A DNA stretch of 39,660 nt from Chloroflexota bacterium (lineage in GTDB: Bacteria > Chloroflexota > Anaerolineae > Anaerolineales > UBA11858): positions 1 to 39,660 of the forward strand of contig VGOC01000023.1 in assembly GCA_016865865.1 (NCBI GenBank). The letters are read 5' to 3'. Numbering within the stretch: position 1 is the first letter of the stretch; each line of letters begins with the position of its first letter. The position numbers and the translations under genes were made by a program. The notes under the pieces are model-generated. The model did not search any database. It was given only the letters and a program-made list of their open reading frames with translations, and was not told where the DNA came from. Of the stretch, positions 30,038 to 37,292 are shown piece after piece.

Positions 30038-30149
30038 GAGTACACAGCCAAACAGAGAAATTCCCGAAAAAAGGGTGTGCGTGGGGGTGCTGCGCACCCC
30101 CACGCACACCCTTTTTTCGGGCTAATCCGTTCGATGACTGAGCAGTTAC
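30038..30149. mobile_element. Family B palindromic element, copy 3 (112 bp)
   Basis: Same length and plan as 23167-23278. The right end is GACTGAGCAGTTAC; the left end is diverged (GAGTACACAGCCAAACAGAG). Perfect core hairpin CCCGAAAAAAGGGTGTGCGT... mirrored to TTTTTTCGGG at 30063-30121, shaped like a bidirectional terminator. It follows the nuclease gene by 25 bp and could end that operon. No target duplication is visible. Confidence 0.8.
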
Positions 30150-31374: not shown

Positions 31375-32535
31375 ATGCCTACTGCCGAAATTATAACGAT
31401 TGGTACAGAATTACTGCTCGGCGAGACGATTGACACCAACACGCGCTATATCGCCCGTTCCCTGCGCGATGCTGGCGTTGACCTTTACCGGGCCTCGACG
31501 GTTGGCGACAATCAGGAACGAATCGCGCGGATCATCCGCGAGGGGATGGAGCGCGCCGAGATCATCATCACAACCGGCGGGCTTGGCCCTACCGTGGATG
31601 ATCCCACTCGCGGAGCGATTGCCCTGGCCCTGGGCGTCGAGACGGAGTTTCGCCCCGAACTATGGGATCAAATTCAAGAACGATTTCGACGCTTTGGTCG
31701 CACGCCTACTGAGAACAATCGGCGCCAGGCGTATGTTCCCCAGGGCGCTTTGGCAATCGAGAATGAAGTCGGCACAGCGCCCGCCTTCATTTGCGAGACA
31801 GATCATCATGCCATCATCGCTCTGCCCGGCGTGCCGCGCGAGATGGAATTCCTGATGCACGGAAAGATCATGCCTTATTTGCGAGAGCGCTTCGATCTCA
31901 GGGAATTGATCAAATCCAGGGTGCTGCATACTTCGGGGGTCGGCGAATCGACTATTGACGCGCGCATCGGCGATCTGGAAGAGATGAGCAACCCCACCGT
32001 CGGGATGGCCGCTCATGCCGGGCAGGTGGATATCCGCATCACCGCCAAAGCTCACTCCGAAGAGCAGGCCGACGCGCTGATCCATGAAATCGAAGAGCAG
32101 CTCCGTGACCGGCTTGGCGACTGGATTTATGGGGCTGATGAAGATACTTTGGAGGGCGTGGTGCTGGCGGCCATGGCTGAGAAGAAATGGCGACTGGCCG
32201 CTGTGGAAACCAGCCTGGGAGGTCAGCTATTGGGACGGTTAGCGGGCAAAGGGGAATCCTTCGTGGGGGGCGAGATCGTATCACCGCCTTCGGATACATC
32301 ACCCGAGGGTCTGTCTCGATCCGTGGAGAAGGTCTGCCTGGCCTACCGGGCGGATGTGTGTCTCGGCGTGATGCTGATCCCCGGAGAAACCCAGCAGACC
32401 ATGCATCTGGCCATTCGAACGCCACAAGACATGCATAAGACCACACGCACCTATGGCGGGCCGCCCCAATTGGCGCCGCTTTGGACCGTGAATTTAAGTC
32501 TCGATATTTTACGAAAGTATCTGGTTGGCTCCTGA
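31375..32535 (+). CDS. cinA: CinA-like protein with degenerate PncC domain
   Basis: The product has 386 residues. The N-terminal MoaB-type domain is complete: AEIITIGTELLLGETIDTN, IITTGGLGPTVDDPTR, IALPGVPREM. A KH-type middle follows. The C-terminal third should be the nicotinamide-nucleotide amidase (PncC) domain, whose AESCTGG catalytic motif reads AVETSLGG here; the serine position is not conserved, so deamidase activity is doubtful. CinA cleans ADP-ribose and NMN and is often linked to competence. The ATG at 31375 is the start of the conserved region; an ATG at 31327 overlapping the upstream gene is possible. The stop lies 8 bp before the amidohydrolase ATG. Confidence 0.85.
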   Translation: MPTAEIITIGTELLLGETIDTNTRYIARSLRDAGVDLYRASTVGDNQERIARIIREGMERAEIIITTGGLGPTVDDPTRGAIALALGVETEFRPELWDQIQERFRRFGRTPTENNRRQAYVPQGALAIENEVGTAPAFICETDHHAIIALPGVPREMEFLMHGKIMPYLRERFDLRELIKSRVLHTSGVGESTIDARIGDLEEMSNPTVGMAAHAGQVDIRITAKAHSEEQADALIHEIEEQLRDRLGDWIYGADEDTLEGVVLAAMAEKKWRLAAVETSLGGQLLGRLAGKGESFVGGEIVSPPSDTSPEGLSRSVEKVCLAYRADVCLGVMLIPGETQQTMHLAIRTPQDMHKTTRTYGGPPQLAPLWTVNLSLDILRKYLVGS

Positions 32536-32543
32536 GGTATCTC

Positions 32544-34526
32544 ATGACAAAACATATTGACCTCTTACTTACCAATGCCATCGTGTTGACGATGGATGAT
32601 GAATTCCATCAATACGAGCCTGGCGCGGTCGCCGTAGACGGAGACAGCATCATCGCCGTCGGCTCCGATGATTTGCTGAAGACCCAATACGCCGCCAAAG
32701 AAATTACCGACTGCCAGGGTAGAGTGCTCATGCCTGGGCTGGTCAACGCACACACCCACGCCGCGATGACGCTGTTACGCGGTCTTGCCGATGACCTGCG
32801 CCTGGATGTGTGGCTGCTGGGCTTCATGATGCCGGTGGAACGAGAATTCGTTTCACCCGAATTCGTACAACTGGGCACATCCCTGGCCTGTATCGAATTC
32901 ATCCGCTCTGGGGTGACTTGTTTTGCGGATATGTACTATTACGAGGAAGAAGCCGCCAGGGCGACTGCCGAGATCGGGCTGAGGGCGCTCTGCTCCCAGA
33001 CCGTGCTCAAATTCCCCTCGCCGGACGCAGACACATACGAACAAGCCCTGGAAGTCGCTCAGGATTTCATCCAACGCTGGGTGGGACATCCCCTGATCGT
33101 CCCTTCCGTAGCTCCCCACGCCCCCTATACCTGTACGGAGGGTATCCTTCAGGCAACCACGCAGATCGCCGCCTCCTATAACGTGCCTCTTCACACACAT
33201 CTTGCTGAGACTCTTACGGAAGCAGAAAATTCAAAAGAAGAACATGGTATGGCAGTGATCCCTTATGTAGAGAAGATGAGACTCTTCGACGCCAAGGTAC
33301 TGGCGGCTCATTGTGTTCATATAGATGTTGGCGAAATCCATACTCTATGTCATCGCAAGGTCGGAGTGTCGCACAACCCCACCTCCAACTTGAAATTAGC
33401 CTCGGGGTTCGCGCCAGTTACCGGGATGCTCGAGGCGGGTCTCGATGTGGGAATCGGCACCGATGGCCCCGCCTCCAATAACGATTTGGACATGTTCGAA
33501 GAAATCCGTCTGGCTGCGTTGGTCGCCAAAGGTTCGTCAGGCGACCCCACTGCGCTGCCGGCCCGGACCGCTCTTGCAATGGGAACCCGTCTCGGCGCAA
33601 AAGCCCTTCACATGGGAGACGTCACCGGCTCATTGGAGCCTGGCAAACGCGCCGATTTGATCCTGGTGGACATCTCTCCCCTGCACAACGCCCCTCGTTT
33701 TCGGCGCGACCCGGAAGGGATTTACGCGCAACTGGTATACGCATCCAAAGCCACCGATGTCACGGATGTGATGGTCAACGGGCGGTGGTTGATGCGTGAA
33801 CGGAAACTGCTTACGATCAATGAAGCAGAATTATTAGCGCACGCGGCCGCCTACGCGAAGAAGATAGACGCCTTCCTGATCCAGCGGGAACAATCGGTGC
33901 TCTCGAAATTGATTGCCATCGGCGGCGCCATGGAACAAGAGAGCTTCGAGGTTCAGGTCAAGGTGCGCGTATCCGACCCCGACGCCATCATAGAACGCAT
34001 CGAACAACCCGATTTGGAGATCCTGCAACAAAGGCGTTATCACGAATTCGATACGTACTTCCACTTCGACGATCCCGCTCAAGGCCAGTTACGTTACCGA
34101 GAGGATGAATTTATCAATGAAAAAGGGGAAATCACAAACGTCCGTTACCGCCTGACGATGATCGGGCAGACTCGCGAGCGGCATTTCCCCAGCGATGTCC
34201 TGCTCTCGCGCAGCCGTTTCATTGCGCCCGCCATCCACAGCTTACGCTTCTATCGGGAATATTTCAAACCCAAATCCGAGACCTTCATCGAAAAAGACCG
34301 TCTTCGCTGGCGGGTGATTTATCAAGGGACAGAATTCTACATCAATCTCGACCGCATCGCCCAACCCGATCTGGGTACCTTCCTGGAAGTCAAAAGCCGC
34401 ACCTGGAGTCTGCGGGATGCTGAGAACAAAGCCGAGATCGCTGAGCACCTGATCGCCTTCCTGGGCGCCGAGATGGAAAGCACCGTCACACAGGATTACG
34501 TCGAGTTCATCGAGGAACCCAAATAA
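32544..34526 (+). CDS. Amidohydrolase (SAH/MTA deaminase type) fused to a CYTH domain
   Basis: The product has 660 residues. Residues 1-440 are an amidohydrolase of the TRZ/ATZ-MtaD branch: metal-binding HTH at 70-72 (NAHTHAAMTLLRGLADD), VPSVAPHAPYTC, HTHLAET, AHCVHID and IGTDGPASNND. It would deaminate an adenosine-type compound. From residue about 463 (MEQESFEVQVKVRV) a CYTH domain follows, with the ExExK signature altered to E-V-Q-V-K, then RYREDEF, RYRLTMIG, RWRVIYQG and FLEVKSRTW, which carry the Arg/Lys/Glu residues of the triphosphate tunnel. CYTH proteins bind or hydrolyse triphosphates. GAGGT precedes the ATG at 32544. The frame is continuous across the junction; an internal ATG at 33930 could in principle start CYTH alone, but it has no ribosome site. 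Confidence 0.88.
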   Translation: MTKHIDLLLTNAIVLTMDDEFHQYEPGAVAVDGDSIIAVGSDDLLKTQYAAKEITDCQGRVLMPGLVNAHTHAAMTLLRGLADDLRLDVWLLGFMMPVEREFVSPEFVQLGTSLACIEFIRSGVTCFADMYYYEEEAARATAEIGLRALCSQTVLKFPSPDADTYEQALEVAQDFIQRWVGHPLIVPSVAPHAPYTCTEGILQATTQIAASYNVPLHTHLAETLTEAENSKEEHGMAVIPYVEKMRLFDAKVLAAHCVHIDVGEIHTLCHRKVGVSHNPTSNLKLASGFAPVTGMLEAGLDVGIGTDGPASNNDLDMFEEIRLAALVAKGSSGDPTALPARTALAMGTRLGAKALHMGDVTGSLEPGKRADLILVDISPLHNAPRFRRDPEGIYAQLVYASKATDVTDVMVNGRWLMRERKLLTINEAELLAHAAAYAKKIDAFLIQREQSVLSKLIAIGGAMEQESFEVQVKVRVSDPDAIIERIEQPDLEILQQRRYHEFDTYFHFDDPAQGQLRYREDEFINEKGEITNVRYRLTMIGQTRERHFPSDVLLSRSRFIAPAIHSLRFYREYFKPKSETFIEKDRLRWRVIYQGTEFYINLDRIAQPDLGTFLEVKSRTWSLRDAENKAEIAEHLIAFLGAEMESTVTQDYVEFIEEPK

Positions 34527-34536
34527 TCGGAGAAAG

Positions 34537-35388
34537 ATGAAAATCGCTGTCCTGGCTGACATCCACGCCAACTACCCGGCGTTGTTGGAAGTCGCTGAGC
34601 ATGTTCGAAGCTGGAAACCCGACCTGATTTTCGTCGCCGGCGATACAGTCAACCGCGGGCCGCGGTCAATGGAATGCTTGCGTTTCATCCAGGAGAAGGA
34701 ACGCCAGGAAGGTTGGCGAGTCATCCGCGGCAACCACGAAGATTACGTCATCGTGCATTCGCAGCCGGATGCCCCAAAAGCTGGGCCGCTGTTCGAGTTG
34801 TTCCGCTACAGCTATTGGACGTACGAACAATTGGGGTGTGACGCCAAAGCCCTGGAAGCCATGCCCGAAGAGGTGAGCCAAAATGTAGCCGGTGGCGGCG
34901 AATTCCGGGGAGTACATGCTTCGATGCGCAGCAGCCGGCACGGCATCTATCCTGAGATGGACGATCAAACTCTGAAAAAGCTGATCACCCCTGCCCCCAC
35001 GCTGCTGGCCGTGGGACACACCCACCGGCCGCTTGTCCGCCAGGTGGGGGAGACGCTGGTAGTCAACGCCGGTTCGGTCGGTCTGCCCTTCGATGGAGAC
35101 CCGCGCGCGGGCTACGCCCAGATCAGCCTTGTTAAGGGAAGCTGGAGCGCCAAGATCATCCGCTTGCCTTATGATCTCGCTCGAACCAGACAGGATTATA
35201 TCGAGACCGGTTTCCTGGGAGGCGCAGGCCCCCTGGCAAAGTTGATCCAACTGGAATTAGAACATTCTCTTTCCCAGCTCTATCAATGGATGAGCTGCTA
35301 CATGGATGCCGTGTTGGACGAAGAAATCAGCGTCGAGCAGGCTGTAGAAGAATATCTAAAAGCGCCCATGATACAACCCTATTGGTAA
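34537..35388 (+). CDS. Metallophosphoesterase (calcineurin-like, YfcE/MJ0936 type)
   Basis: The product has 283 residues. Metal-site motifs appear in order: LADIHANYPAL (D-x-H), VAGDTVNRGP (GD), IRGNHEDYV (GNHE) and VGHTHRPLV (GHxH). The NAGSVGLPFDG block places it with small cytosolic phosphodiesterases. The C-terminal 70 residues, helical and rich in Glu and Gln, go beyond the minimal fold. It is 10 bp after the amidohydrolase-CYTH gene, likely co-transcribed, so a shared nucleotide substrate is possible but inferred. Confidence 0.92.
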   Translation: MKIAVLADIHANYPALLEVAEHVRSWKPDLIFVAGDTVNRGPRSMECLRFIQEKERQEGWRVIRGNHEDYVIVHSQPDAPKAGPLFELFRYSYWTYEQLGCDAKALEAMPEEVSQNVAGGGEFRGVHASMRSSRHGIYPEMDDQTLKKLITPAPTLLAVGHTHRPLVRQVGETLVVNAGSVGLPFDGDPRAGYAQISLVKGSWSAKIIRLPYDLARTRQDYIETGFLGGAGPLAKLIQLELEHSLSQLYQWMSCYMDAVLDEEISVEQAVEEYLKAPMIQPYW

Positions 35389-36433: not shown

Positions 36434-37267
36434 ATGATCGAAGCACTGGCCCTCGCATCCCAGCTTGCCCAGGAGACCGGCGTCCTGCTGATGGGATTTT
36501 ATCAACCCGGCGGCGTCATCACATCCCTGAAAGATGACCGCTCGGCCGTCACCGAAGCCGATCTGGCTGCCGACCAGCTCATCCGCGCCCGCATCGGCCA
36601 GCACTTCCCAGACGATGGCCTGCTTACAGAAGAAGACAATACCATCTATCCCAGGGAGAAGCCTGCCGTGTGGGTCATTGATCCGCTGGATGGCACGACC
36701 AATTTCAGCCTGGGCCTGCATTATTGGGGTGTGTCCATCGCCCGCCTGGTACACGGAGAACCGGACACCGGCGCGCTTTACTTTCCGATGATCGGAGAAT
36801 TATTCACCGCCCAACGCGGCCAGGGCGCTTACCTGAATGGGGATCGTCTGCGGGTCAAAAGTCCAGACAAAAACCGACCCTTCACCTTCTTCACCTGCTG
36901 CTCTCGCACCTTCAAGCAGTATGAGATCAAAGTCCCTTACAAGGCTCGCATCCTGGGATCAGCGGCTTATGGATTGACCACCGTCGCGCGCGGGAGCGCC
37001 GTACTTGCCTTCGAGGCGACTCCTATGGTTTGGGATTTTGCCGCCAGTTGGCTGGTGATTCGGGAGGCAGGAGGGGTGGTTCGACCTCTTGAAGAGAATC
37101 ATGTCTTCCCGCTCTCTCCAGGGACAGATTACGCCAGCAAGAGTTTTCCCATTCTGGCAGCGGCTACACTTGAACTGTGGGATGAAGGTCGGAGCAAGAT
37201 CATTCTAAAAAAGGGTGTGCGCAGGGGGCGTAGCCGCTTTGCGTGCGCACACCCTTTTTTCGGGTAA
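36434..37267 (+). CDS. Inositol-monophosphatase-family phosphatase with repeat-derived tail
   Basis: The product has 277 residues from the ATG at 36434. Metal-site motifs: LLTEEDNT (Glu pair), WVIDPLDGTTNFS (DPLDGTTN) and MVWDFAASWLVIREAGG (WDxAA). The family removes phosphate from inositol 1-phosphate, fructose bisphosphate or 3'-phosphoadenosine phosphate; the substrate is unknown. The last 22 or so residues (KKGVRRGRSRFACAHPFFG) are translated from the hairpin of a family B element, so the natural stop was lost. No ribosome site precedes either ATG (36416 or 36434). A TATACT at 36420-36425 would place the transcript start at about 36432, almost leaderless for the ATG at 36434, but no good -35 is seen. 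Confidence 0.88.
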   Translation: MIEALALASQLAQETGVLLMGFYQPGGVITSLKDDRSAVTEADLAADQLIRARIGQHFPDDGLLTEEDNTIYPREKPAVWVIDPLDGTTNFSLGLHYWGVSIARLVHGEPDTGALYFPMIGELFTAQRGQGAYLNGDRLRVKSPDKNRPFTFFTCCSRTFKQYEIKVPYKARILGSAAYGLTTVARGSAVLAFEATPMVWDFAASWLVIREAGGVVRPLEENHVFPLSPGTDYASKSFPILAAATLELWDEGRSKIILKKGVRRGRSRFACAHPFFG

Positions 37268-37292
37268 ATCCGCTCGATGGCTGAGCAGTTAC
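37207..37292. mobile_element. Family B palindromic element, copy 4 (left end lost)
   Basis: AAAAAAGGGTGTGCGCAG... mirrored to TGCGCACACCCTTTTTT forms the usual core, here with a few mismatches near the loop. The right end GGCTGAGCAGTTAC is intact; the left terminal repeat cannot be recognised. It provides the stop of the phosphatase gene, and its hairpin could terminate that transcript ahead of the aldo/keto reductase gene. Confidence 0.75.

Follow-up and report, generated by a model that had tools for sequence, protein, structure and literature searches.

A single gene of a Chloroflexota bacterium raises the question of why a protein half resembling deaminases of adenosine compounds should be joined to a domain resembling the CYTH triphosphate tunnels, and what a tunnel might do in such company. 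The gene lies in the window, by which we mean the whole stretch of 39,660 nucleotides that was analysed (contig VGOC01000023.1). An earlier note, made from the sequence alone, had offered two answers, a bifunctional enzyme acting on an adenosine compound and a triphosphate, or a deaminase with a built-in nucleotide sensor.

The fusion gene and its distribution

The frame is open without interruption from the ATG at 32544 to the stop at 34524-34526 (Table 1). That an amidohydrolase and a CYTH domain are joined in frame, as the earlier note proposed, agrees with a match of the N-terminal half to Pfam Amidohydro_1 (PF01979; aa 61-415, 1.2e-69, 235.6 bits against a cut-off of 25) and with the tunnel (TTM) fold predicted for the C-terminal half. 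The full-length model of the fusion protein has a pLDDT of 89.1 and a pTM of 0.86; the domain limits are approximate, with the deaminase at aa 1 to ~445 (1-441 in Table 1) and the C-domain at aa ~464-660.

Table 1 Features of the fusion gene and its flanks, in window positions
Feature	Position	Strand	Basis or remark
CinA-like gene (MoCF_biosynth + CinA_KH)	31375..32535	+	Ends 8 bp before the fusion
Whole fusion gene	32544..34526	+	660 aa plus stop; ORF reading and full-length homologues
MTA/SAH-type adenosine deaminase half, aa 1-441	32544..33866	+	Profile, structure match, invariant residues
Helical linker, aa 442-463	33867..33932	+	Conservation and predicted structure
CYTH/TTM-fold C-domain, aa 464-660 (predicted tunnel and C-terminal helix)	33933..34523	+	Profiles, model
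E469-V-Q471-V-K473 (ExQxK; altered CYTH ExExK)	33948..33962	+	130/130 rows
D503-T-Y505 (DxY motif of TTMs)	34050..34058	+	130/130 rows
R517-Y-R519 (RxR phosphate-binding pair)	34092..34100	+	130/130 rows
K584-D-R586-L-R588 (KxR phosphate-binding pair and extra Arg)	34293..34307	+	130/130 rows
E615-V-K617 (ExK at the TTM ExE; metal-1 ligand retained, metal-2 ligand now Lys)	34386..34394	+	130/130 rows
Metallophosphoesterase	34537..35388	+	Begins 10 bp downstream of the fusion; local neighbour

Far from being unique to this assembly through the loss of a stop, which the earlier note had named as the finding that would undo its proposal, the fusion is widespread in one open frame. A contig database scan, in which the best 80 of 544 relatives were examined (record titles: Chloroflexota, Anaerolineae or their genera), returned the complete fusion at 64-84% identity in 80 of 80 loci, all from other genome records. 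Since every one of these loci carries it in one open frame, and 88 of the 90 places described below are full-length, an assembly artefact or chance read-through can be set aside as having a negligible probability.

Among 400 sampled Chloroflexota genomes, the C-domain is present in 89, at 90 places. By kinship, the counts are 35 of 36 within the same order (the window's own genome counted), 15 of 19 in other orders of that class, and 39 of 345 in other classes. Complete fusions make up 88 of the 90 places, and the other two are interrupted by contig ends: L111 starts at a contig end within the deaminase, and the G387 copy is situated at two contig ends. No free-standing C-domain was seen among the 90 places. 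Reading the loci showed full fusions at 30 places (L081-L110) and at 19 of the 20 distant ones (L111-L130); for the other 40, a full-length profile showed the same at 39. One read-through stop occurs in four of the 90 matches; L129, the one of these that was read, has the frame over aa 1-655. Among 41 relatives, 38 have the full-length fusion, the three without it being drafts that are 80-88% complete. Five genomes belonging to the order or class of the window's genome (G176, G088, G128, G208 and G276) are without the tunnel domain and have unfused deaminase relatives, and one genome (G304) holds two full-length fusion copies (G304:C53 and G304:C121). A search of plasmids and phages gave no match.

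A tree was built from 28 fused deaminase halves, picked for spread from 130 rows, and 24 unfused paralogues. A single branch (support 99/99, recovered in 98% of 200 bootstrap trees) separates the fused rows from the unfused ones, and on the fused side the same-class and other-class rows stand mostly apart; there are long branches among the unfused rows, whose own order is unsure. One fused side and the separation by class therefore fit a single old fusion event that would have been mainly inherited.

The deaminase half

The amidohydrolase active site comprises an HxH pair, a His, a catalytic Glu, a further His and an Asp. H70, H72, H219, E222, H256 and D307 of the fusion fit this motif, and together with W90, E99, R147 and H192 they are invariant throughout the 129 rows that extend this far. 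The closest structural parallels are 4f0r from C. violaceum, 4dyk and 4gbd from P. aeruginosa, and 4dzh from X. campestris, which have the fold in common with aa 1-445 of the fusion. The first of these, named MTA/SAH deaminase, matches by sequence at 9.9e-92, and its metal and catalytic residues align with those of the fusion and are identical, the six active-site residues included. The deaminase model superposes on 4dzh, 4dyk and 4f0r with Z 57-58, rmsd 1.3-1.6 and 37-38% identity; with 4gbd included, Z spans 56.5-58.3, above that for Tm0936 (1p1m, Z 50.7). The solved MTA/SAH-type deaminase chains, of 434-439 residues, stop where the linker of the fusion starts. The cut-offs of the NCBIfam MTA/SAH deaminase equivalogs were missed (NF012037, 296 against 779 bits; NF006549, 454.2 against 540). 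Because of the structure match and the invariant active site, the data support this half being a working deaminase of adenosine-type compounds, in line with the earlier note, and MTA or SAH as substrate would be compatible with its fold and active site.

In P. aeruginosa, MTA is converted to methylthioinosine, which then undergoes phosphorolysis (PMC6302742). Across 121 sampled Chloroflexota genomes, an AhcY homologue is found in 117 and an MTAP-family enzyme in 112 (96 above cut-off), and MtnN lies above its cut-off in 6. As AhcY and MTAP-family enzymes are near-universal in this sample, the fusion deaminase is not clearly required for the removal of SAH or MTA. The idea that the fusion replaces AhcY, MTAP or MtnN was rejected, as the 121 genomes display no simple opposition between them and the fusion. 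At one locus (L125), the opposite-strand gene adjoining the fusion resembles, as we take it from its sequence, an MTA/methylthioinosine phosphorylase; such a neighbour would suit MTA as the substrate of the deaminase.

The tunnel half: fold and family

The window protein has no match to Pfam CYTH (PF01928; cut-off 23.2 bits), and its match to NCBIfam cyaB (1.2e-5, 25.2 bits) lies under the cut-off of 57.95. Because its own sequence is too divergent for Pfam CYTH, the C-terminal half is linked to that family through homologues: 36 of 81 homologous C-domains match PF01928 and 66 match cyaB (E up to 0.1), and one fused homologue (G078) reaches 31.1 bits with PF01928, above the cut-off. In hhalign, the C-domain aligns with ordinary Chloroflexota CYTHs at 94.5% probability over 163 columns, against a set of 24 rows of which one was mis-picked (L153, a wrong-strand ORF). 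Four ordinary CYTH rows (L134, L148, L149 and L157), aligned separately, give the same correspondence for the ExExK, RxR, KxR and ExE positions, and one row of the 24 aligns to SaTTM at 4.3e-14.

A search of solved structures with the C-domain sequence, singly and as a profile, found nothing. The C-domain model (pLDDT 87.6) superposes best on PH1819 (2een; Z 18.9, rmsd 2.4, 170 aligned), followed by AC-IV (2fjt/3n0z, Z 17.2), SaTTM (7ns9, 16.9), AtTTM1 (7z67, 15.9) and ThTPase (14.8). Archaeal TTMs and class IV cyclases together span Z 16.6-18.9, and Vtc4p (3g3r) is a weak match (Z 9.3, rmsd 4.1). By predicted model and profile comparison, the domain thus has the eight-stranded tunnel fold of the CYTH/TTM superfamily.

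With cyaB as the top NCBIfam match (66 of 81 members) and AC-IV structures as strong fold matches, the domain could be taken for a class IV adenylate cyclase that forms a cyclic nucleotide. The motifs point elsewhere: HFxxxxExExK is missing, the first Arg of RxR is retained where a cyclase has a small residue, Lys takes the place of the second Glu of ExE where a cyclase has Ala, and the window protein falls under the curated cyaB cut-off. We consider a cyclase very improbable; similarity matches of such tunnel domains to the cyclase model are probably misleading.

A tunnel with an altered metal site

The altered CYTH signature that the earlier note had singled out is indeed there, E-V-Q-V-K occupying the position of ExExK. 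E469, Q471, K473, D503, Y505, R517, R519, R558, K584, R586, R588, D603, E615 and K617 are invariant in all 130 rows, 20 distant ones included; these rows exclude the window's second copy (L081) and are not independent, since many come from related species. The correspondence to TTM residues rests on profile alignment. Of the residues that characterise TTM phosphatases, the fusion retains RxR (R517/R519), KxR (K584/R586) and the metal-1 Glu (E615), and has ExQxK and ExK in place of the ExExK and ExE of metal site 2; the tripolyphosphatase motif rule also fails. At position 540 (I540 in the window protein), where TTMs have the Lys of LTxK, every one of the 130 rows carries an uncharged residue (I, L, V, T or M). 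R558 is the probable counterpart of the first Glu of RxExE, at the point where the alignment is weakest and model confidence dips. Position 515, which serves as the W/YxRxR test for ThTPase, holds R in 73, Y in 12 and W in 11 of 130 rows, and this motif rule fails too. W621 is present in 99% of rows, and we would guess that it stacks on a base or ring. Compared with SaTTM and archaeal CYTH (7ns9, 2een), the fusion shares the tunnel fold (Z 16.9-18.9), RxR, KxR, DxY and the metal-1 Glu, whereas ExQxK, ExK, the absence of the LTxK Lys and the obligate deaminase fusion set it apart.

In TTMs, metal 1 is bound by the leading Glu of ExE, and metal 2, the activator of the water, by the other Glu of ExE and by those of ExExK. 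In ygiF, metal 1 is bound by Glu-160 and the substrate, metal 2 is bound by Glu-4, Glu-6 and Glu-162, and metal 2 is the proposed activator of the attacking water (PMC4641920). The same paper reports that mutation of metal-2-type residues strongly lowers the activity of AtTTM3 and ygiF, and PMC8233210 names the second Glu of ExE as the metal-2 ligand on which TTM and ThTPase catalysis depends. In our alignment, Glu-160 is retained (E615), Glu-6 has become Gln and Glu-162 has become Lys. We infer that the tunnel may hold a phosphate chain without the usual hydrolysis, because metal-2 residues are replaced while metal-1 and phosphate-binding residues are retained. Some metal-2 binding would be possible, as E469 and D603 are retained.

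On the bifunctional answer, the tunnel would use metal differently but remain a phosphohydrolase of PPPi, PPi or NTP; it would remove an ATP-derived phosphate product, and the deaminase the adenosine product that goes with it. The residues expected along the tunnel are invariant, and such strict conservation would fit altered catalysis as well as a binding site. Plant TTM1/2 are without ExExK and ExE and have pyrophosphatase activity, with DxY present (PMC8233210). The fusion keeps this DxY, and its C-domain model superposes well on TTM1 (7z67, Z 15.9); like the fusion, TTM1/TTM2 join a TTM to a second domain, although theirs is kinase-type and the fusion's is a deaminase. Since these plant proteins are active, motif loss does not prove an inactive domain, which is the main counterpoint to a tunnel without hydrolysis. 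Against hydrolysis, two of the three ygiF metal-2 glutamates are Gln and Lys, changes of a kind that strongly cut the activity of AtTTM3 and ygiF, the LTxK Lys is also lost in 130 of 130 rows, and the W/YxRxR of TTM1/2 is not conserved. The earlier note's two answers therefore part here: the sensor is favoured over the triphosphatase because the metal-2 site needed by TTM phosphatases is now Gln, Lys and probably Arg in all 130 rows, and we regard retained hydrolysis as unlikely.

A basic tunnel with metal site 1 only could also act as a transferase of the Vtc4 type, taking phosphate from a nucleotide and handing it on, for example to a lengthening polyphosphate as acceptor. Vtc4p is described as having metal site 1 without site 2, with basic residues replacing the acidic patch (PMC4641920), and the fusion may be similar in that site 1 would be present and the site-2 acidic patch largely replaced. 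By alignment, Q471, R558 (less surely) and K617 stand at three of the four acidic-patch positions of site 2. The Vtc4 residues R264, R266 and E426 (PMC9911596) would in our inference match R517, R519 and E615. However, the structural match to Vtc4p is the weak one given above, Pfam finds no VTC family in 81 members and recognises neither SPX nor membrane parts, and E469, the first Glu of the acidic patch, is retained; a Vtc4-like transferase appears decidedly improbable.

The TTM folds of Mediator subunits Med18/Med20 provide a precedent for a ligand-free structural or oligomerisation module, as they occur among the fold matches and their catalytic activity is described as lost (PMC4641920). 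A pure scaffold would not need the many invariant residues that bind phosphate or metal 1, and we think this explanation quite unlikely.

Linker and coupling

In the alignment of fusion rows, mean column identity is 0.771 in the linker, 0.766 in the deaminase and 0.664 in the C-domain. F444, E449 and K455 of the linker are invariant, and most of it is predicted to be helix. Because the linker is conserved like the deaminase and the fusion is obligate, mechanical or allosteric coupling of the two halves is favoured over a loose tether.

Neighbouring genes and local DNA

A same-strand CinA-like relative lies upstream of the fusion in 60 of the 71 loci with room, within 150 bp in 34. In the window's CinA-like protein, the CinA C-terminal (deamidase) domain was not matched at E 0.001, and ~130 C-terminal residues are without assignment. 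This gene order belongs to the 80 database loci, and no neighbour conserved phylum-wide was seen. The earlier note had also drawn on the metallophosphoesterase as a fit to nucleotide metabolism; its position 10 bp downstream stands, but as a functional clue or a partner of the fusion it was rejected, as it follows the fusion in just 5 of 74 loci with room. Neither of these two genes offers a functional link that holds across the phylum. In 8 of the 19 distant loci (L113, L116-L121 and L130), the gene directly 3' of the fusion is one that we take, from its sequence, to be CoaE-like (dephospho-CoA kinase-type).

At 30063-30121 lies a hairpin of 28 perfectly paired bp closed by a loop of 3 nt, and one of its arms, together with the flank, recurs as an imperfect second copy at 37246-37292. 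Across the genome of 3.25 Mb, the arm core has 212 forward and 213 reverse matches (at most two mismatches); the reversed pattern, used as control, has 0. The hairpin is a REP-like dispersed palindrome of roughly 200 copies.

Discussion

The fusion is real, old and obligate, and carries a distinct TTM variant; both of its halves are known folds. Among the fusion partners of CYTH listed in a 2021 survey (PMC8233210) are CHAD, HD hydrolase, exopolyphosphatase, nucleotidyl kinase and phosphoribulokinase-type domains. In a library of open-access papers, we found no report of a CYTH/triphosphate-tunnel domain fused to an amidohydrolase or deaminase, and no description of a fixed ExQxK/ExK tunnel.

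The best explanation adds to these observations the substrates of the deaminase, the ligand, the absence of hydrolysis and a regulatory role, each of them worded here as a proposal. The N-terminal half would most likely convert 5'-modified adenosines from SAM chemistry (MTA, SAH or 5'-deoxyadenosine) to their inosine form. The C-terminal half would be a TTM tunnel in which a polyphosphate- or nucleotide-type ligand is held with one metal and left unhydrolysed, and via the conserved helical linker this half would most likely adjust the deaminase or its assembly. An MTA/SAH/5'-deoxyadenosine-type deaminase with a non-hydrolysing, probably regulatory TTM domain is a description we are as ready to believe as to doubt. 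Of the readings considered, the sensor has the most support, and we give it about an even chance. Its more specific form, a metabolite sensor in which the tunnel without a catalytic metal serves as a built-in polyphosphate or nucleotide receptor that sets the clearance rate of SAM's adenosine by-products, is put forward only tentatively. If it is true, candidate signals would include ATP, PPPi from SAM or cobalamin chemistry, polyphosphate and an alarmone.

The fusion makes two questions testable, namely which ligands are bound by non-hydrolysing TTM domains, and whether the removal of SAM by-products is coupled to the energy or phosphate state of the cell. Should the metabolite sensor prove true, bacteria would have put the TTM fold to allosteric use, and this use would have become fixed early in the Chloroflexota.
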